The position numbers were made by a program, and so were the translations under genes. Source: an uncultured Oscillibacter sp. (GTDB lineage Bacteria; Bacillota; Clostridia; Oscillospirales; Oscillospiraceae). From it: a stretch of 36,092 bases of DNA. The DNA lies in contig CAJOHW010000013.1 of assembly GCA_905234565.1 (NCBI GenBank), positions 1-36,092 on the forward strand, given 5' to 3'. Positions within the stretch are counted from its first letter, which is position 1. Every line of letters starts with the position of its first letter. Shown one piece after another: positions 437 through 14,681 of this stretch. Under the pieces are notes generated by a model that worked only from the letters and a program-made list of their open reading frames with translations, searched no databases and had not been told where the DNA came from.

Positions 437-2614
437 ATGAGCGCATCCAGAGAAAAGCAGGCGCGGAAAACCGCCGCGCCCAAAACTGCCATGGAGGCCC
501 AGCAGCAAAAAGAGGAACGCCGCAGCAAGCTCCTCTATGGCGGCATCGCCGCCGCCCTGGCCGTCGCGGTGATTGCCACCCTGGTTTGGAATTCCAACAT
601 CATCGCCCGCTTCGCCACCGCCGTTACGGTGGACGGCCAGAAGTACAACGCTGCCCAGGTCAGCTTCTACTACCGCACCGCCTACATGAACTTCATGAAC
701 GGCACCTACGGCTACTTCGCCAGTTACCTGGGACTGGATACCTCCACCTCCCTGGAAAACCAGACGGTGAACGAGACCGCCGCCAGTATGCTGGACACAG
801 AGGAGGGCATCACCTGGAAGGAGTACTTCCTGCGCCAGGGGATCCGACAGATCGCCAGTGTGCAAAACGGTCTGAAAAAGGCTCAGGAGGAGAGCTTCTC
901 CTATCCCGACAGCGTGCAGTCCGGCCTGGACGACGCTATGTCCGCTCTGTCCACCAACGCCCGGGCCAGCGGCGTCAGCCGGGGGCGCTACCTGAAAAGC
1001 GTCTACGGCTCCACCATGACCGAGGGCATCTACCGCACGGAGGTCCGGAGGACCCTACAGTTCCAGGCCTACGCCTCCGCCTATAATGACTCCCTGGACT
1101 ATACCACGGAGGAGTTGGAGGCCGCCTACGCGGAGGACCCCAACAGCTATGACCAGGTGTCCTATGAGATGGTGCGCTTCGATGGATCCACGCCGGAACC
1201 GGCGGAGGACGAGGAAACCGCCGGGACCGCCGCGGAAGAGACCGCAGAGGAAACGACAGAAGAGGCAGCGGAAGAGACCGCCGCGGAACCGGAGACTACG
1301 GAAGAGGCCGGAGAAGAGGCCCAGACGGAAGAACCCGCCCCGGAGGAAGCCGCCCCGGAAACGGAGACGGAAGTCCTGACGCCGGAGGACGGCGGAGAAA
1401 CCGCCGACGAAGCGGCCCAGGAAGAGACGGAGAACCCGGATTCCCAATCTGAGGACGGGATCGGCTTCCCGGCTGGCGGCGACGGCCTGACCGGCGCCGT
1501 GGAGGACACAGACGTGATTGATGACCTCCTGGCCCCCGGCGCCCAGGGCGGTCTGGATGCCGTGGTGGATCTGCGCAACGACGTGACGGAAGAAAACGCG
1601 CCGGAGACGGAGGTCCCCGAAGCCGAGACAGCCGAAACGCCGGAGGCTTCCTTGGAGGCTGAGGAAGCGCTTGCTCTCATGACCGCTGCGTCTGAGGACG
1701 ATGCCCCCATCGCCCCCGCGCCGGAGAACGCCGAACCCGCTGACGACACCGCAAACACGGAGGTCGCCGCCGAACCCGCTGATGATACCGAAGAAACTGA
1801 CGATGCCGCAAGCGCGGAGACTGCCGAACCCGCCGACGATGCCGCAAACGGCGATGAGGAGGAGACGGAGGCCCGTGCGGCCGCCAAAGAGGCGGCGGAG
1901 GCCCTGCTGTCCCTCTATCGGGCAGGAGGGAACCTGTCCCAGCTCAGCGCGGACCTGGAAAACGCCTCCTACTCCCAGGAGGAAACCGCCACTTACTCCA
2001 ACCTGTCCCTGACCAGCGAGGATCTGGCCGACTGGCTCTTTGACAGCGCCCGGAAATCCGGCGACGCGGACGTGGTGGAGAATGGCGACTACTTCTACAC
2101 CGTGGTGTTCCGGGACCGGACCCGGGACGAGAACAAGACCATCGACGTGCGCCACATCCTGATCCGTCCGGAGGAGAGCGAACTGGACGAGGAGGACGAG
2201 GGCCGGGAGGCTGATGTGGAACGGCTCAACAATGAGGCCCATGAGAAGGCCCAGTCCATCCTGACGGAGTGGCAGGAGGGCGAGGCCACGGAGGACTCCT
2301 TCGCCGCTCTGGCCGCGGAGTATTCCGACGACAGCAACGCCAGTGAGGGCGGACTGTACACCCGGGTGTACCTGGGCGAGATGGTAGAGGCCTTTGAGGA
2401 CTGGTGCTTTGACCCAGAACGCAAACCCGGCGACACGGGTCTTGTGGAGACGGACAACGGCTGGCACGTGATGTACTTCGTGGGAGACGACTTGCCCCGC
2501 TGGCAGGCCCAGGTCTATGACGATTTGAAAAATGAGGCCTATTCCACATGGCTCACCGCCTTGTATGAGGACGCGGTCATCGAGCGGCATGACTTCGGAA
2601 TGGGGTTCGTGTAA
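437..2614 (+). CDS. Membrane-anchored PpiC/PrsA-like peptidyl-prolyl isomerase with large acidic insert
   Basis: A predicted extracytoplasmic foldase (parvulin, EC 5.2.1.8), 725 aa. After a basic cytoplasmic N-terminus, one membrane segment (about residues 33-54) anchors it with the rest outside. A SurA/PrsA-like N-terminal region (about 60-245) precedes a parvulin domain (about 565-690) with DVRHILI, a Ser-rich YSDDSNASEGG segment and the GWHVMYF end typical of PpiC. Between them, about residues 250-485 are a low-complexity Glu/Ala/Thr/Pro/Asp-rich stretch with repeated AEPADD units. The reading frame is open further upstream through the tRNA, but ATG 437 is chosen because it follows the promoter, an AGGAAGAGAGG ribosome site and a normal basic N-terminus. 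PrsA-type proteins are usually about 300 aa, so the insert accounts for much of the size. The family is confident; the role of the insert is unknown. Confidence 0.9.
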   Translation: MSASREKQARKTAAPKTAMEAQQQKEERRSKLLYGGIAAALAVAVIATLVWNSNIIARFATAVTVDGQKYNAAQVSFYYRTAYMNFMNGTYGYFASYLGLDTSTSLENQTVNETAASMLDTEEGITWKEYFLRQGIRQIASVQNGLKKAQEESFSYPDSVQSGLDDAMSALSTNARASGVSRGRYLKSVYGSTMTEGIYRTEVRRTLQFQAYASAYNDSLDYTTEELEAAYAEDPNSYDQVSYEMVRFDGSTPEPAEDEETAGTAAEETAEETTEEAAEETAAEPETTEEAGEEAQTEEPAPEEAAPETETEVLTPEDGGETADEAAQEETENPDSQSEDGIGFPAGGDGLTGAVEDTDVIDDLLAPGAQGGLDAVVDLRNDVTEENAPETEVPEAETAETPEASLEAEEALALMTAASEDDAPIAPAPENAEPADDTANTEVAAEPADDTEETDDAASAETAEPADDAANGDEEETEARAAAKEAAEALLSLYRAGGNLSQLSADLENASYSQEETATYSNLSLTSEDLADWLFDSARKSGDADVVENGDYFYTVVFRDRTRDENKTIDVRHILIRPEESELDEEDEGREADVERLNNEAHEKAQSILTEWQEGEATEDSFAALAAEYSDDSNASEGGLYTRVYLGEMVEAFEDWCFDPERKPGDTGLVETDNGWHVMYFVGDDLPRWQAQVYDDLKNEAYSTWLTALYEDAVIERHDFGMGFV
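1730..1850 (+). repeat. Imperfect AEPADD-coding repeats in the parvulin insert
   Basis: Three near-copies of GCCGAACCCGCTGACGA begin near 1730, 1770 and 1823, with spacing near 40 and 53 bp. They encode AEPADDTA, AEPADDTE and AEPADDAA inside the acidic insert. Synonymous differences show they are diverged copies. They are part of the coding sequence rather than mobile DNA. Confidence 0.7.
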
Positions 2615-7618: not shown

Positions 7619-7637
7619 TTCTATGCGCGCCATAGAA
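7619..7637. promoter_or_regulatory. Palindrome TTCTATG-N5-CATAGAA in the amidase/mtlA divergent region
   Basis: A 19-bp palindrome with 7-bp perfect arms, 6 bp upstream of the mtlA -35. Read leftwards it contains TAGAAT, a possible -10 of the amidase-like gene. The same half-site recurs at 15810-15817 and 15847-15854. Its function is unknown; it could be an operator or a two-way -10 element. Confidence 0.45.
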
Positions 7638-7643
7638 AAAGCG

Positions 7644-7672
7644 TTGACTTTCCAGAATCGTTCTGGTATGAT
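7644..7672 (+). promoter_or_regulatory. Promoter of mtlA with a palindrome in its spacer
   Basis: TTGACT (7644-7649), 17 bp, TATGAT (7667-7672) preceded by TGG. The spacer holds CCAGAA-TCG-TTCTGG (7652-7666), a perfect 6-bp inverted repeat placed where a repressor would block RNA polymerase. A cre-like sequence, AAAAAGCGTTGACT (7636-7649), overlaps the -35 with three departures from the CcpA consensus. Confidence 0.7.
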
Positions 7673-7742
7673 GAACTTGTTACTACAAGCCGCAGGTCTC
7701 AAAATGTCAGGCAAACGTCGGACAAAGGAAGGGAGAGATCGT

Positions 7743-9638
7743 ATGAAAGAACGGGTCCAGAAATTTGGACGCTTCCTCAGCGGCATGGTCATGCCCAACA
7801 TCGGAGCGTTCATCGCGTGGGGCTTCATCACCGCCCTGTTCATCCCGGACGGCTGGTTCCCCAACGAGAGAATCAACGAGATGGTCAGTCCCATGCTGAA
7901 CTACCTGCTGCCGCTCCTCATCGGCTACACCGGAGGCCGGATGCTGGCGGACCAGAAGGGCGCGGTGACGGGCGCTATCGCCACCCTGGGTGTCATCGTA
8001 GGCGTACCGGGCACTCCCATGTTCATTGGCGCCATGATTGCGGGGCCCCTTGGCGGCTGGTGCATTAAGAAATTTGACCAGGCCATGGAGGGACACATCC
8101 CCGCCGGGTTTGAGATGCTGGTGAACAACTTCTCCGTGGGTATCATCGGCGGCGTGCTGGCGGTGCTGTCCATGTTCGTCATCGGGCCTGTGTGCAGCGC
8201 CCTGACCGGCATTCTGGGCGCGGGCGTAGGCTTCCTGGTGGGCCATGGCCTCCTGCCCCTCACCGCCATTCTGGTGGAACCCGCCAAGGTGCTGTTCCTG
8301 AACAACGCCATTAACCACGGCGTATTCACCCCCATCGGCGTACAGCAGGCCACGGAACTCGGCAAGTCCATCCTGTTCATGATTGAGTCCAACCCCGGCC
8401 CCGGATTGGGCCTCCTGCTGGCCTATGTGGTGGCGGGCAAGGGTTCCTCCAAGTCCTCCGCCGCCGGCGCGGCCTTCATCCAGTTCGTGGGCGGCATCCA
8501 CGAGCTGTACTTCCCCTTCGTCCTCATGAACCCCATCCTGATTCTGGGGCCCATGACCGGCAACATCGTGGGCATCTTCCTGCTGCAGCTCCTGGGCGGC
8601 GGCCTGAAAGCGGCGGCCTCCCCGGGCTCCATCATCGCGGAACTGCTCATGACCCCCAGAGGCGCGTACTTTGCCAACATCGTGGGCATTGCGGCGGCCT
8701 GCGCCGTCAGTTTCGTGGTGACGCTGGCCCTTATGAAACTGTTCGTCCGTGAGGAAGCCGAGGGCGACTTTGAGGCGGCACAGGCGGCTCTGGCGGAGAG
8801 CAAGGCCATCGCCAAGGGACAGGTCCCCGCCGCCAACGCCGTGTACGTAGACCCCAGGGACGTGAAGAAGATCGTCTTTGCCTGCGACGCGGGCATGGGT
8901 TCCTCCGCCATGGGCGCGACAATGCTCCGCAATAAGCTCAAAGGCGCGGGCATCACCGACATCACCGTGGTTCACGCCCCGGTGTCCGAAGTCCCCAAGG
9001 ACTGCCAGATCATCGTCACCCACCACGAGCTGTCCGCCCGGGCCGCCAACGACAATCCGGGCGTGCGGATTATCCCCATTAAGAACTTCATGGGCGCTCC
9101 CGAATACGACGCCCTTGTCACCGAAATGGTAGAGGGCCGTGGCGCCGCCGGGGCCCAGAGCGCCGGAAGCGTCCACGCGGCGGAGGCCGACAAAGTCCAG
9201 GCCGGAGAGATCCTGCTGAAAAAGGAGAACATCAAGCTGGGACTGAAACCCGTGGCGCCGGAACAGGCGATCCGGGACTGCGGCCGCATGATGGTGGAAG
9301 CCGGCATCGTGGAGGAAGGCTACATCGAGGGCATGATTGAGCGGAACAAGAGCTTCCCTGTGGCCATCGGCAACCATGTGGCGATTCCCCACGGCACCAA
9401 TGAGGCCCGGAAGTTCATCATTCACAACGGCCTGGTGTGTATGACCTATCCCGATGGCATTGCCTGGGATGAGGATACCGTGAAACTGGTGGTGGGCATT
9501 GCCGTGAAGGACGGCGGAGACCACGTGGATGTGCTGGGAGCCGTGGCGGAAGCCGCCGACACGGAGGAGGCCACAGACGCCCTGGTGTCCAGCGGAGATG
9601 TGGACCTCATTTACAAAAAGCTCAACGGTTTGGCGTAA
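7743..9638 (+). CDS. mtlA: PTS mannitol-type EIICBA permease
   Basis: A membrane transporter that imports and phosphorylates a hexitol, most likely mannitol, using phosphate from EI/HPr (631 aa). The membrane EIIC domain comes first (about residues 1-345), starting GRFLSGMVMPNIGAFIAWG as in MtlA and containing GGIHELYFPFVLMNP. The EIIB domain follows with VFACDAGMGSSAMG and phospho-acceptor Cys381. The EIIA domain comes last with NHVAIPHGT and phospho-acceptor His550. These match the fused layout of E. coli MtlA. ATG 7743 is chosen because of the GGGAGAG site upstream; the frame extends further but the N-terminus matches the family here. No mtlD or mtlR is in the window. It is convergent with the HPr-lactate dehydrogenase fusion. 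Confidence 0.93.
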   Translation: MKERVQKFGRFLSGMVMPNIGAFIAWGFITALFIPDGWFPNERINEMVSPMLNYLLPLLIGYTGGRMLADQKGAVTGAIATLGVIVGVPGTPMFIGAMIAGPLGGWCIKKFDQAMEGHIPAGFEMLVNNFSVGIIGGVLAVLSMFVIGPVCSALTGILGAGVGFLVGHGLLPLTAILVEPAKVLFLNNAINHGVFTPIGVQQATELGKSILFMIESNPGPGLGLLLAYVVAGKGSSKSSAAGAAFIQFVGGIHELYFPFVLMNPILILGPMTGNIVGIFLLQLLGGGLKAAASPGSIIAELLMTPRGAYFANIVGIAAACAVSFVVTLALMKLFVREEAEGDFEAAQAALAESKAIAKGQVPAANAVYVDPRDVKKIVFACDAGMGSSAMGATMLRNKLKGAGITDITVVHAPVSEVPKDCQIIVTHHELSARAANDNPGVRIIPIKNFMGAPEYDALVTEMVEGRGAAGAQSAGSVHAAEADKVQAGEILLKKENIKLGLKPVAPEQAIRDCGRMMVEAGIVEEGYIEGMIERNKSFPVAIGNHVAIPHGTNEARKFIIHNGLVCMTYPDGIAWDEDTVKLVVGIAVKDGGDHVDVLGAVAEAADTEEATDALVSSGDVDLIYKKLNGLA

Positions 9639-9664: not shown

Positions 9665-9705
9665 AAAACACGCGGCAGGGGCTGAACGCTCCTGCCGCGT
9701 GTTTT
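9665..9705. terminator. Bidirectional terminator between mtlA and the HPr-LDH gene
   Basis: A 15-bp perfect stem (9665-9679 with 9691-9705) beginning AAAACACGC and ending GCGTGTTTT, so each strand ends in a U-run. It serves both convergent transcripts. Confidence 0.8.
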
Positions 9706-9732: not shown

Positions 9733-11034
9733 TTATGCCTTGCACTCGCCTACGCCCAAGGGGTTGCCCTCGTTGAAGTTCCGGGCGTTTTCCAGGGTGG
9801 TTCCGGCAATGGCCTGCAATGCCTCCCGGGTGAAGAAGGCCTGGTGAGAGGTCAGCACCACGTTGGGAAACATCAGCAGACGCGCCAGATTCTCGTTCCG
9901 GGTGAAGTCGTCGGAGTGGTCCGTGTACACATAGGCGTCCTCGTCCTCATAGACATCCAGGGCTACCGCGTGGAACTTTCCGGCCTTCAGGGCGGCGATC
10001 AGGGCCTCCGTATCAATGAGGGCGCCCCGTCCGGCGTTCACCAGCATGGCGTCGTCCTTCATGTGGGAGATGGCCTCCGCGTCGAGAATGTGGAAGGTGC
10101 CGCCCTCTCCCATGAACAGAGGCACGTGGAGGGACACCAGGTCCGCCCGTTCCAGCACCGTGAACTTGTCGGCGTAGGTCAGCAGACCCTCGTCCACCAG
10201 CTTCTGGTTGGGATAGGCGTCCCAGGCCAGGACCGTCATGCCGAAGCCCTTGCAGATCCGGGCAAAGCACTGGCCAATCTGACCGGTGCCAATGATGCCC
10301 GCCACCTTGTTGTGGAGGTCCACGCCCATGAGGCCGTTGAGGGAGAAGTTGTTGTCCTTCACCCGGTAAATGGCCTTGTGCAGGCGGCGGTTGGCGGCCA
10401 TGATGATGGCCATGGCGTGTTCCGCTACCGCGTAGGGGGAGTAGGCGGGCACCCGCACCACCGTCAGGCCCCGGGCCTCCGCCGCCTTCAAATCCACGTT
10501 GTTAAAGCCCATGCAGCGCAGCAGCACCAGCCGCACGCCCCCGTCAGCCAGGATGTCCACCACCTTGGCCGGGCACTCGTCGTTGACGAAGATGCACACC
10601 GCGTCATAGCCCTTGGCAAGATAGGCGGTTTCCTCCGTGAGGCGGGTGGTGAAGAAGGTAATATCACAGTTGAAGGTGCCCTCACCCTTGTCCTTGATGA
10701 GCTCGCTGAAAAACAGTTGGTCATAGTCCTTGGTGCCGAAAAAGGCGATTTTCAGCACGTCCACCTTTTTCTTCTCCGCAAACGTGTCGTTGAGGATCTT
10801 CTCCACCTGGGCCAGGGATCCGGCCTCGTCGCCGCCCTCGGCGCTGATCTCCAGCACGGAACCCTTCCCCGCGTGGAGAGACAGGAGCTGCAAGACATTG
10901 TTGCCGTTGGCGGTCTTGCCGTTGCACTTGACGGTGATCTGGGAGGGAATCTTGACGCAGGCTTGGGCGAGAATCGCCGCGGGGCGGGCATGGATGCCAA
11001 AGGGATTGGTCACTTCAAACTGGATGGTCTGCAT
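9733..11034 (-). CDS. HPr domain fused to LdhA-type D-lactate dehydrogenase
   Basis: A 433-aa two-domain protein. Residues 1 to about 88 are a full HPr phosphocarrier domain: NPFGIHARPAA has phospho-acceptor His15 at its canonical number. The regulatory Ser46 position reads Asn (GKTANGNNVLQLLSL), so HprK should not be able to phosphorylate it there. Residues about 95-433 are an NAD-dependent D-2-hydroxyacid dehydrogenase closest in pattern to fermentative LdhA: SPYAVAEHAM, NNFSLNGLMGVDL, the Rossmann loop GIIGTGQIGQ with Asp after VLAW, and catalytic Arg336, Glu363 and His397 (VLTSHQAFFT). It would reduce pyruvate to D-lactate with NADH. The ORF is unbroken and has one AAGGAGG site 9 nt before ATG 11034, so this is a real fusion rather than two genes. 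Coupling of the two activities is inference. Confidence 0.9.
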   Translation of the reverse strand: MQTIQFEVTNPFGIHARPAAILAQACVKIPSQITVKCNGKTANGNNVLQLLSLHAGKGSVLEISAEGGDEAGSLAQVEKILNDTFAEKKKVDVLKIAFFGTKDYDQLFFSELIKDKGEGTFNCDITFFTTRLTEETAYLAKGYDAVCIFVNDECPAKVVDILADGGVRLVLLRCMGFNNVDLKAAEARGLTVVRVPAYSPYAVAEHAMAIIMAANRRLHKAIYRVKDNNFSLNGLMGVDLHNKVAGIIGTGQIGQCFARICKGFGMTVLAWDAYPNQKLVDEGLLTYADKFTVLERADLVSLHVPLFMGEGGTFHILDAEAISHMKDDAMLVNAGRGALIDTEALIAALKAGKFHAVALDVYEDEDAYVYTDHSDDFTRNENLARLLMFPNVVLTSHQAFFTREALQAIAGTTLENARNFNEGNPLGVGECKA

Positions 11035-11107
11035 ACCTTTCTTCCTCCTTGCGGCCCGGACGGCGCACCGCCTCCGGACCTTTGTCAGATTTGTGGGACC
11101 TGAGAGT

Positions 11108-12032: not shown

Positions 12033-14681
12033 ATGCGGCGGTCTGTCGTCGGCATCCTGGCCCATGTGGACGCCGGGAAAACCACCCTCTCCGAGGCCCT
12101 GCTGTTCCGTTCCGGAACCCTCCGGGCCATGGGACGGGTGGACCACGGGGACGCGTTTTTGGATACGGACGCTTTAGAACGGGAGCGGGGCATTACGATT
12201 TTCTCCAAATGCGCACGGTTCACGTTTGAGGACTGGGAGGCGGTCCTCCTGGACACCCCGGGCCACGTGGATTTCTCCGCGGAGACGGAGCGGGTTTTGG
12301 GAGTCCTGGACTGCGCCATTGTCCTTATCAGCGGCACCGACGGCGTCCAGAGCCACACCCGGACCCTGTGGAACCTGCTGTCCCGGCACAAAGTCCCTGC
12401 CTTTCTCTTTGTCAACAAGATGGACCTGGACGGGGCGGACCGGGACCGGGTACTGGAAGATCTGAAAGCTGGACTGTCCGGCTCTATTGTGGATTTTGGC
12501 GGGCCGCCGGAGGCCGTGGCGGAGGAGGCGGCCTTGTGTGAGGAGGGGGTGTTGGAGCGGTATCTGGACTCCGGCACCGTATCGGAGGCAGATCTGCGCC
12601 GCCTCATCGGGGAGCGGAAACTGTTCCCCTGCTTCTTCGGCTCCGCCCTGAAATTAGACGGGGTAGACCCGTTTCTGTCCGCCCTGGCCCGGTATGCCCC
12701 CTCTCCCGCCTACGGCCCGGAATTCGGGGCCAGAATCTTCAAAATCACCCGGGATCCCCAGGGGAAGCGCCTGACCTGGCTGAAAGTCACCGGCGGCGTC
12801 CTCCGGGCAAAGCAGACCCTCTCCCACGGCGATCCCCAAGTCAAGAGCGGGTGGGCGGAAAAAGCGGATCAGCTCCGGCTCTACTCCGGAAAGAAATACC
12901 AGCCCATAGAAACAGCAGAAGCCGGGACGATCTGCGCCGTGACAGGGCTGCGGCAGTCCCGGGTGGGAGAGGGCCTGGGGTTTGAACGGGACGATCCGGG
13001 GCCATCCTTAGAACCGGTGCTCTCCTACCGGGTCCTGCCCCTGGACGGTACGGATCCCCATACCGCTTTAGAAGCCCTGCGGCAGCTGGAAGAAGAAGAT
13101 CCCCAGCTCCATGTGGTGTGGGATGAAGGGTCCCACGCCCTCCACGTCCGGCTCATGGGGGAAATCCAGCTGGAAGTCCTCCGGCGGGTCCTCCGGGACC
13201 GCTTCGGCATGGACGCCGCTTTCGGCGACGCCGCCATTGTCTATCGGGAAACCATCGCCGCCCCGGCGGTGGGCGTGGGCCACTTTGAGCCTCTGCGCCA
13301 CTACGCGGAAGTCCATCTCCTGCTGGAACCCCTGCCCACTGGCAGCGGGTTACAGTTGGCCTCCCGCTGCCCGGAGGATGCCTTAGACCGGAACTGGCAG
13401 CGGCTGATCTTAACCCATTTGGCAGAGCGGGAACATCCCGGCGTCCTGACCGGGTCCCCTATTACGGATCTGCGCATCACTTTGACGGCGGGCCGTGCCC
13501 ACCTAAAACACACGGAGGGCGGCGACTTCCGGGAGGCCACTTATCGGGCGGTGCGGCAGGGCCTCATGGGAGCGGAGTGCGTGCTGCTGGAACCCTGGTA
13601 CGCTTTCCGGCTGGAACTCCCCGCCTCCTATGTGGGGCGGGCCATCACGGACCTTCAGCGGATGGGCGGGGACTTCCGGCCTCCGGAGACGGAGGGGGAG
13701 ACGGTGGTCCTGACCGGATCCGCCCCGGTGTCCGGCATGAAGGAGTACGCCGCGGAGGTCCGGGCCTACTCCCGGGGCCTGGGACAGCTGTCCCTGGGGG
13801 TGTCCGGTTTCCGTCCCTGCCCCGATCAGGAGGCCGTCGTTGCTTCCATCGGCTACGATCCGGAGCGGGACATCGCCAATCCCACAGGATCCGTGTTCTG
13901 CGCCCACGGAGCCGGGTATGTGGTCCCCTGGTTTCAAGTTCCCGATTTGGCCCATATTCCGGTGGAGGCCCGTCCAAAAGAACGACAGGAAGCCGCCGCC
14001 CCCAGCCGGTCCGGTTCTTCGCCGAAACCTGTGGATTTCGCCGGAACCCTGGCCCAGGAGAAGGAACTGAAAGCCATTTTTGAGCGGACCTACGGTCCCG
14101 CCAAAGAGCGCCGGGAAGTTCAGGTCCGGCAGCCGGAACCCCCGGCCCCAGTTCAGTCCGCCAAACTTCCGGAAGGACCGGAGTACCTGCTGGTAGACGG
14201 CTATAACATCATTTATGCCTGGGAGGAACTGTCCGCCGTGGCCCGGGAAAACCTGGACGCCGCCCGGACCTTGCTCTGCGATCTGCTGTGCGAGTACCAG
14301 GGAATGCGGGGGTGCGTGGTCATCGTGGTGTTCGACGCCTACAAGGTCCGGGGAAATCCCGGGTCCCATGAGAAGTATCACAACATCCATGTGGTCTACA
14401 CCAAGGAGGCGGAGACGGCGGACGCCTATATTGAGCGGGCCACCTATGAGATTGGCCGGGGACACCGGATCCGGGTGGCCACCTCCGACGGGCCGGAACA
14501 GCTGATCATCCTGGGCCACGGGGCCCTGCGCCTGCCCGCCTCCCTGTTCCGGGAAGAGATGGAACAGGTCCAGGGCCGTATCGCCCAGATCCTCTCCGCC
14601 CTCAACCGCCGGGAGAACACCGGCGTGGTCCGGGCCGCCATCGAACGGGCCCTGTCCCAAAGAAACCAGTCCGGCGCGTGA
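12033..14681 (+). CDS. EF-G/TetM-like translational GTPase fused to a Rae1/YacP NYN endonuclease domain
   Basis: An 882-aa protein. Residues 1 to about 630 form a complete EF-G-type GTPase close to ribosomal protection proteins: P-loop AHVDAGKTT (residues 10-18), RGITI switch I, DTPGH with His78, NKMD (128-131), then domains II-V, with domain V including EYAAEVRAYSRGLGQLSL. After a linker (about 640-715) comes an NYN/PIN-like domain of the YacP type with DGYNIIYAWEEL (Asp722), VVFDAY (Asp768), ETADAYIE (Asp797) and ATSDGPEQ (Asp819), matching the conserved acidic residues of B. subtilis Rae1, which cuts mRNA in the ribosomal A site. The GTPase could place the nuclease on the ribosome. Automatic tools may call it a tetracycline resistance protein; nothing here proves resistance. 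AGGAGG lies 9 nt before ATG. Confidence 0.9.
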   Translation: MRRSVVGILAHVDAGKTTLSEALLFRSGTLRAMGRVDHGDAFLDTDALERERGITIFSKCARFTFEDWEAVLLDTPGHVDFSAETERVLGVLDCAIVLISGTDGVQSHTRTLWNLLSRHKVPAFLFVNKMDLDGADRDRVLEDLKAGLSGSIVDFGGPPEAVAEEAALCEEGVLERYLDSGTVSEADLRRLIGERKLFPCFFGSALKLDGVDPFLSALARYAPSPAYGPEFGARIFKITRDPQGKRLTWLKVTGGVLRAKQTLSHGDPQVKSGWAEKADQLRLYSGKKYQPIETAEAGTICAVTGLRQSRVGEGLGFERDDPGPSLEPVLSYRVLPLDGTDPHTALEALRQLEEEDPQLHVVWDEGSHALHVRLMGEIQLEVLRRVLRDRFGMDAAFGDAAIVYRETIAAPAVGVGHFEPLRHYAEVHLLLEPLPTGSGLQLASRCPEDALDRNWQRLILTHLAEREHPGVLTGSPITDLRITLTAGRAHLKHTEGGDFREATYRAVRQGLMGAECVLLEPWYAFRLELPASYVGRAITDLQRMGGDFRPPETEGETVVLTGSAPVSGMKEYAAEVRAYSRGLGQLSLGVSGFRPCPDQEAVVASIGYDPERDIANPTGSVFCAHGAGYVVPWFQVPDLAHIPVEARPKERQEAAAPSRSGSSPKPVDFAGTLAQEKELKAIFERTYGPAKERREVQVRQPEPPAPVQSAKLPEGPEYLLVDGYNIIYAWEELSAVARENLDAARTLLCDLLCEYQGMRGCVVIVVFDAYKVRGNPGSHEKYHNIHVVYTKEAETADAYIERATYEIGRGHRIRVATSDGPEQLIILGHGALRLPASLFREEMEQVQGRIAQILSALNRRENTGVVRAAIERALSQRNQSGA

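Follow-up and report, generated by a model that had tools for sequence, protein, structure and literature searches.

A natural fusion of an HPr domain with an LdhA-type dehydrogenase in Oscillibacter and other gut and rumen bacteria

The fusion gene and its two halves

The stretch of DNA analysed here (the window) comprises 36,092 nucleotides of contig CAJOHW010000013.1 (assembly GCA_905234565.1) from an uncultured Oscillibacter sp. and carries on its minus strand a gene for a protein in which HPr, the phosphocarrier of the phosphoenolpyruvate (PEP)-dependent sugar phosphotransferase system (PTS), precedes a dehydrogenase of the LdhA type (Table 1). The reading frame is uninterrupted and extends from an ATG start over 433 codons (11034-9736) to a stop codon at 9733-9735. 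A sequence-only reading of the window had proposed this joining of domains, and both were indeed found in the single 433-aa frame with Pfam scores above the cut-offs. We compared 35 fusion genes, namely the one of the window, 24 loci of a first related-locus scan, nine from searches of an even phylum sample and of one other family, and locus L116. No two of the encoded proteins are identical; 34 have 429-436 aa, and L103 has 401 aa.

The PTS-HPr family (PF00381) matched residues 4-82 with 72.9 bits (cut-off 23), and TIGR01003 matched the fusion with 68.4 bits (cut-off 47.9). Solved Bacillus HPrs align without gaps (e.g. 1rzr_T, residues 5-81), with His15 on His15 and Asn46 at the position of Ser46, so that both the intact phosphotransfer site and the asparagine at the HprK site were read correctly. 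The regulatory serine 46 of Gram-positive HPr is thus missing from the window protein, although not every HPr needs it. In the AlphaFold model, the HPr half has the order beta-alpha-beta-beta-alpha-beta-alpha with block values of the local confidence score pLDDT of 84-91 over residues 1-80, and Asn46 lies directly before the helix 47-51. All 35 fusions retain the phosphotransfer-centre residues H15, A16 and R17. Residue 46 is Asn in 34 of the 35; only L102 has Ser, in a canonical GKSI motif, which makes it a natural control for an action of HprK on the fusion. Further residues that are typical of the fusions and commonly different in free HPrs are A20, Q24, C26, A42, N46, V47, L51 and A55, with Ala20 and Ala55 each present in 31/34 fusions. 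Several of these positions sit on the face that touches enzyme I (EI) and the EIIA proteins in known HPr complexes. Cys26 occurs in 33/34 fusions, whereas 40/49 free HPr-like proteins of the carrier genomes have Ala at this position; a redox role of this cysteine is conceivable.

In the dehydrogenase half, 2-Hacid_dh matched residues 114-425 (102.3 bits, cut-off 24.6) and 2-Hacid_dh_C residues 208-399 (158.3 bits, cut-off 25.1), and the NAD motif GTGQIG at residues 249-254 follows the LdhA pattern GTGxIG. The whole enzyme half aligns with solved LdhA enzymes, to which it is 43-49% identical in a structure search (5z21 from Fusobacterium, 5z20 from Pseudomonas and 5z1z from E. coli), and Arg336, Glu363 and His397 coincide with the catalytic residues, as had been predicted. 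All of the 50 matches listed by Foldseek for the whole-protein model were of the 2-hydroxyacid dehydrogenase type. The NCBIfam models for D-lactate dehydrogenase (D-LDH) stayed below their cut-offs (PRK12480 196.2 versus 579 bits, PRK08605 171.3 versus 356 bits) and appear to describe other D-LDH groups; a model of the E. coli LdhA type was not among the 25 of 32 families listed. From the identity to 5z1z, 5z20 and 5z21 we infer that the protein probably forms a tetramer and reduces pyruvate to D-lactate. R336 and E363 are present in 35/35 fusions, and H397 is absent only from L103 (34/35). This copy falls short of full length by about 31 residues and lacks the His397 column in the alignment, which may point to a flaw of the assembly, an inactive enzyme or a deletion that arose naturally. 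Relative to 28 rows of unfused LDHs, one of which is a 6-residue fragment, the fused enzymes carry short insertions: residues 117-120 are gapped in 0/35 fused versus 28, 26, 25 and 25 of the 28 unfused rows, and residues 308-310 in 2/35 versus 28/28. The fused LDHs also share a set of fused-typical residues. Together with those of the HPr half, such residues and insertions are what an adaptation between the domains would leave behind; they fit a domain contact but do not prove it.

Table 1. Positions of the fusion gene, its parts and adjacent features in the window.
Feature	Position	Strand	Basis or remark
HPr-LdhA fusion gene	9733..11034	-	433 aa + stop; open reading frame and Pfam
HPr domain, residues 1-84	10783..11034	-	Pfam, AlphaFold model, alignment to solved HPrs
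Linker, residues 85-93	10756..10782	-	Alignment of 25 fusion sequences
LdhA-type D-lactate dehydrogenase (predicted), residues 94-433	9736..10755	-	Pfam, structure search, alignment to solved enzymes
His15 codon, phosphotransfer site	10990..10992	-	H in 35/35 fusions
Asn46 codon, HprK site of canonical HPr	10897..10899	-	N in 34/35, S in 1/35 (L102)
Arg336 codon, catalytic	10027..10029	-	35/35 fusions
Glu363 codon, catalytic	9946..9948	-	35/35 fusions
His397 codon, catalytic	9844..9846	-	34/35; alignment gap in short copy L103
Insertion typical of fused LDHs, residues 117-120	10675..10686	-	35 fused versus 28 unfused rows
Shine-Dalgarno-like AAGGAGGA	11043..11050	-	8 nt 5' of ATG; read by eye
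18-pair stem-loop between convergent genes	9665..9705	+ (only strand reported)	Possible shared terminator
Convergent neighbour, mannitol-type PTS EIICBA	7623..9638	+	Profile searches

The linker between the halves is variable, with invariant residues in 0/11 columns (85-95) of the alignment of 25 fusion sequences. The gene appears to stand alone: the downstream neighbour is convergent, and the upstream neighbour (HGSNAT_cat, from 11228 on the plus strand) is divergent. On the minus strand, no site resembling a promoter was reported, and the stem-loop downstream of the gene is weak as a terminator, as shuffled sequence yields a mean of 1.8 such sites. Elsewhere in the window, an 882-aa frame (12033-14681, plus strand) combines an elongation-factor-G-like GTPase with a C-terminal YacP-like NYN nuclease domain according to Pfam; we take the GTPase half to resemble the ribosomal-protection type.

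Distribution, selection and origin of the fusion

The scan for related loci returned 27 loci, 24 of which are full-length fusions with 62-94% identity; the others are a fusion cut by a contig end (L026), an unfused dehydrogenase (L029) and a lone HPr (L030). The titles of the records name Oscillibacter, Oscillospiraceae, Erysipelotrichaceae, Solobacterium, Lachnospiraceae, Merdimonas and Clostridiales; most of these records derive from metagenomes, and many of them from rumen or gut. In whole-genome searches, the sets of which overlap, the fusion was found in 8/86 genomes of its own genus, 2/394 of its own order (adding L116 as one more carrier), 9/121 of another family in the phylum (one of these copies being the short L103) and 3/398 of an even sample of the phylum. 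Matches at E <= 1e-60 occurred in 140 of the 394 genomes of the order, but 138 of them start at residue 50 or later and represent free LdhA. Three free-LdhA matches (G666, G876 and G871) at first looked as if they extended into HPr, but on inspection none of them had an HPr. One genome with a full copy (L100) contains a second copy truncated by a contig end (L104, G539:C78:2-874). Among plasmids, 2734 records matched, all with less than 60% identity, and 12 covered at least 80% of the query, which were not opened; a junction query (residues 50-200) matched 69 plasmid records, none over 80% of its length, and no fusion was seen. Of 45 matching phage records none covered 80% of the fusion, and in the eight loci found on viral contigs every match began at residue 81 or later.

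The fusion is therefore not confined to a single assembly, as would be expected if reads had been joined wrongly. Most of the scan records derive from metagenomes, in which a chimeric assembly or sequencing artefact could arise, but 35 genes from several families, no two of which encode identical proteins, rule this origin out. Purifying selection and the position of each half on one side of a well-supported branch argue in the same direction, and we give the artefact practically no weight: the fusion is confirmed as real, far beyond chance.

The ratio of nonsynonymous to synonymous substitutions (dN/dS; NG86, 13 chosen pairs, 12 of them defined) was 0.023-0.104 for the HPr half and 0.010-0.073 for the LDH half. 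Both halves are under purifying selection, which is as a rule slightly less strict in HPr. A tree of the LDHs, with 10 unfused and 34 fused enzymes (L103 among them, but not L116), places the fused ones on one side of a branch (support 100/99) that recurs in 200/200 bootstrap trees. In a tree of 34 fused and 49 free HPr-like domains, the fused ones again form one side (support 99/87). Next to them lie 19 free HPrs, the EI-linked ones among them, whose residue 46 is K, Q or R. Caution is due, as branches are long in both trees and the HPr tree rests on few columns. A single fusion that later spread from family to family would be the simplest reading.

An unfused HPr-ldhA gene pair as precursor was sought with hidden Markov models at 46 loci, covering the unfused ldhA or the DNA upstream of it; two of the loci (L144, L158) are cut by contig ends. 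The only case, L124, was rejected as a precursor. It contains a degenerate HPr-like protein (1241-1519, plus strand; PF00381 36.1 bits) with a Ser46 motif and without His15, the end of which overlaps the start of a free ldhA gene (from ~1516) as if translationally coupled. This protein gave no blastp alignment with the fusion HPr, and among 247 genomes of its family no close copy turned up: eight match, namely itself and seven with E values from 2.6e-4 to 9.2e-4. A conserved operon or PTS partner of the fusion was likewise rejected, since the neighbourhoods are not conserved across carriers. Clustering of neighbours by blastp at 26 loci (25 fusion loci including L026 plus the window, with profile annotation of the neighbours in the window only) yielded neighbours that recur chiefly among closely related loci (the Solobacterium loci L017/L027/L028, L011/L012 and L021/L022), and the mannitol-type PTS EIICBA recurs beside no other fusion locus. 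The maps of L006 and L009 are unreliable because the caller of reading frames picked opposite-strand frames over the fusion.

PTS proteins and residue 46 in the carrier genomes

All 26 carrier genomes contain at least one free HPr gene, indicating that the fusion is not the sole phosphocarrier. HprK was found in 24/26 carriers, and EI (PF05524) in 23/26, among them the genome of the window. The L-LDH/malate dehydrogenase family PF00056 gave no match in 18/26 carriers, again including this genome, and matches in the other eight, seven of them above the cut-off. A second close LdhA is also missing from the genome of the window, where the next match is only 32% identical. Judged from PF00056 and from LdhA alone, the fusion may well be its main lactate enzyme.

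The sequence-only reading had asked for a separate canonical HPr and had described the fusion as the mirror image of Crh. The genome has two free HPr genes, L001 with Ser46 and L002 (C6) with Gln46, the latter beside EI. His15 is kept and Ser46 is missing in the window protein, so the comparison with Crh holds in this respect, but the pattern is not special to the fusion, and L102 does have Ser46. Of 83 HPr matches in the carriers, 25 were fusions and 58 free HPr-like proteins, of which 49 were examined after dropping nine weak ones starting at model positions 14-21. K, Q or R stands at position 46 in 19/49. In 13 carriers, many of them close relatives, EI and an HPr gene are no more than 1 kb apart, and residue 46 of this HPr is Q, K or R in 13/13. 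Loss of Ser46 can thus be dismissed as the key novelty: it is a shared trait, and Asn46, found in 0/49 free HPr-like proteins, marks the fusion and is specific to it among the HPr-like proteins examined. Some carriers also have HPr-like proteins with Ser46 and without His15 (L044, L045, L055, L056), others with both residues (L001, L039-L043, L046). This distribution indicates that a division of the two sites occurs elsewhere in these bacteria, with the fusion on the 'histidine-only' side. It is not a general rule, however, because carriers without an EI-adjacent HPr, including those labelled Erysipelotrichaceae, have free HPrs with both sites (e.g. L047-L054).

A possible link between sugar uptake and lactate formation

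We tentatively favour the interpretation that the HPr domain plugs a fermentative D-LDH into the PTS, being phosphorylated at His15 by EI but shielded from HprK, and that its phosphorylation state tunes pyruvate reduction. By analogy with HPr biochemistry and from the conserved residues, EI~P would phosphorylate His15 of the fusion, and sugar-specific EIIAs, or EI in reverse, would drain the phosphate, in which case the state of His15 should track PEP/pyruvate and PTS flux. During rapid sugar uptake, HPr~P would fall, pyruvate and NADH would rise, and the unphosphorylated domain would prevail and permit or raise pyruvate reduction, which P~His15 would restrain. As HprK phosphorylates serine, a domain with Asn46 should ignore the ATP/fructose-bisphosphate signal; the control would be purely PEP-driven and could not be overridden through position 46. 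Relatives of the LdhA type form allosteric tetramers, the specific physiological activators of which a 2014 study (PMC4230899) left open. A direct action of HPr on metabolic enzymes is reported for E. coli, with PykF, PfkB, NagB and Adk as targets (PMC8167557). If the interpretation is true, sugar uptake may steer lactate production directly in gut and rumen fermenters, where lactate output matters. With the covalent protein, nature would offer a simplified system: a single purified protein would suffice to ask whether the PTS phosphorylation state sets lactate overflow, and the typical Asn46 together with one natural Ser46 member offers a way to separate the PEP-driven from the ATP-driven HPr signal. 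In an extended version, which we consider improbable, NADH and pyruvate bound to the LDH half would gate phosphate through HPr while P~His15 gates the LDH in turn; such a redox-PTS switch would balance sugar entry and NADH disposal in one molecule.

Conservation of H15/R17 in 35/35 fusions, the dN/dS of the HPr half, the co-occurrence with EI, HprK and free HPrs, the lack of PF00056 matches in 18/26 carriers, and the fused-typical residues and insertions speak for control by the PTS. Several observations weigh against it. No EI was detected by PF05524 in the carriers G100, G102 and G107, where a 467-aa EI query matched nothing in one genome and, in the other two, only frames of 900-989 aa, and these weakly; the three may be incomplete drafts. 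The linker is variable, and the AlphaFold model of the whole protein (mean pLDDT 78.9, global score pTM 0.67) gives no reliable domain orientation and no interface. Q24 and L51 are not strictly fusion-specific, as each occurs in 14/49 free HPr-like proteins, and with Ser46 in L102 blindness to HprK is not universal among the fusions. Lastly, phosphorylation of His15 is deduced by analogy, and an effect of the HPr domain on the LDH, as well as its sign, we only infer.

The variable linker would equally suit a flexible tether, and full conservation of His15 and Arg17 and the presence of EI in 23/26 carriers are compatible with a docking adaptor or extra phosphocarrier as well, in which HPr carries phosphate and holds LDH close to EI or EII without affecting its kinetics. 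Use of pyruvate and NADH would then be co-localised with sugar entry. However, the fused-typical residues and insertions suggest more than a tether, and fast diffusion of pyruvate would leave little to gain, so that we judge this the less probable explanation, albeit the strongest competitor. The related proposal of the sequence-only reading, a direct hand-over of pyruvate from EI to the dehydrogenase, finds no support here; HPr docks on the N-terminal domain of EI, distant from the PEP/pyruvate site. A purely structural HPr, which would help the LDH to oligomerise or stabilise it and would stay unphosphorylated in the cell, would agree with the stronger divergence of this half (12/84 invariant columns versus 149/338 in LDH, 25 fusion sequences), but a structural role does not need the phosphotransfer centre, and H15, A16 and R17 are invariant; we therefore regard it as unlikely. 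Slightly less credible still is a reverse flow of information, in which HPr would be gated by an LDH half that responds to NADH and pyruvate, so that the redox state sets the phosphate supply to some of the sugar transporters. In its favour, purifying selection maintains a complete HPr half, hosts with other HPrs can afford a specialised carrier, and the neighbour in the window is a mannitol-type PTS, mannitol being a substrate that yields extra NADH. Yet unconserved neighbourhoods speak against the mannitol PTS as a general partner, and an LDH with catalytic residues kept in nearly every copy is not a mere sensor.

Both domains of the fusion are of known kinds. The HPr half resembles Gram-positive HPr (ptsH; 1rzr_T) in its gap-free residues 5-81, His15, Arg17 and the fold order of the model, and differs in Asn46, Cys26, Ala20/Ala55 and the attached enzyme. 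With the tetrameric D-LDHs (5z21, 5z20, 5z1z) the other half shares its level of identity, the catalytic Arg/Glu/His and GTGxIG, whereas the N-terminal HPr and the short insertions are additions. Crh is also an HPr paralogue with one of two phosphorylation sites, but it lacks His15 and keeps Ser46, the reverse of the fusion, and the EI-adjacent free HPrs of the carriers lack Ser46 as well. HPr is a module of longer chains in several multidomain proteins (the EIIA-HPr proteins FPr/DTP, DhaM and EIIA-HPr-EI), in which the partners are phosphotransfer domains; models of EIIA/HPr fusions were also named in the family search. The partner in the fusion is a metabolic dehydrogenase, and Pfam detected no EIIA domain in the chain, so it is not of the FPr/DTP type. 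To our knowledge no HPr-LDH fusion is on record; in agreement with the sequence-only reading, none was listed in searches of open-access papers on HPr fusions, HPr-enzyme interactions and allosteric D-LDHs, which leave subscription papers mostly outside the scope. Free HPr of E. coli is reported to act on enzymes of central metabolism (PMC8167557), there as a separate partner, whereas the fusion is covalent with a 1:1 ratio. Another D-2-hydroxyacid dehydrogenase extended by a regulatory domain is phosphoglycerate dehydrogenase with its ACT domain (PMC4230899); the ACT domain answers to serine, while HPr would report phosphorylation. Compared with all of these, the new element would be the proposed control of an enzyme by the PTS via a covalently attached HPr.
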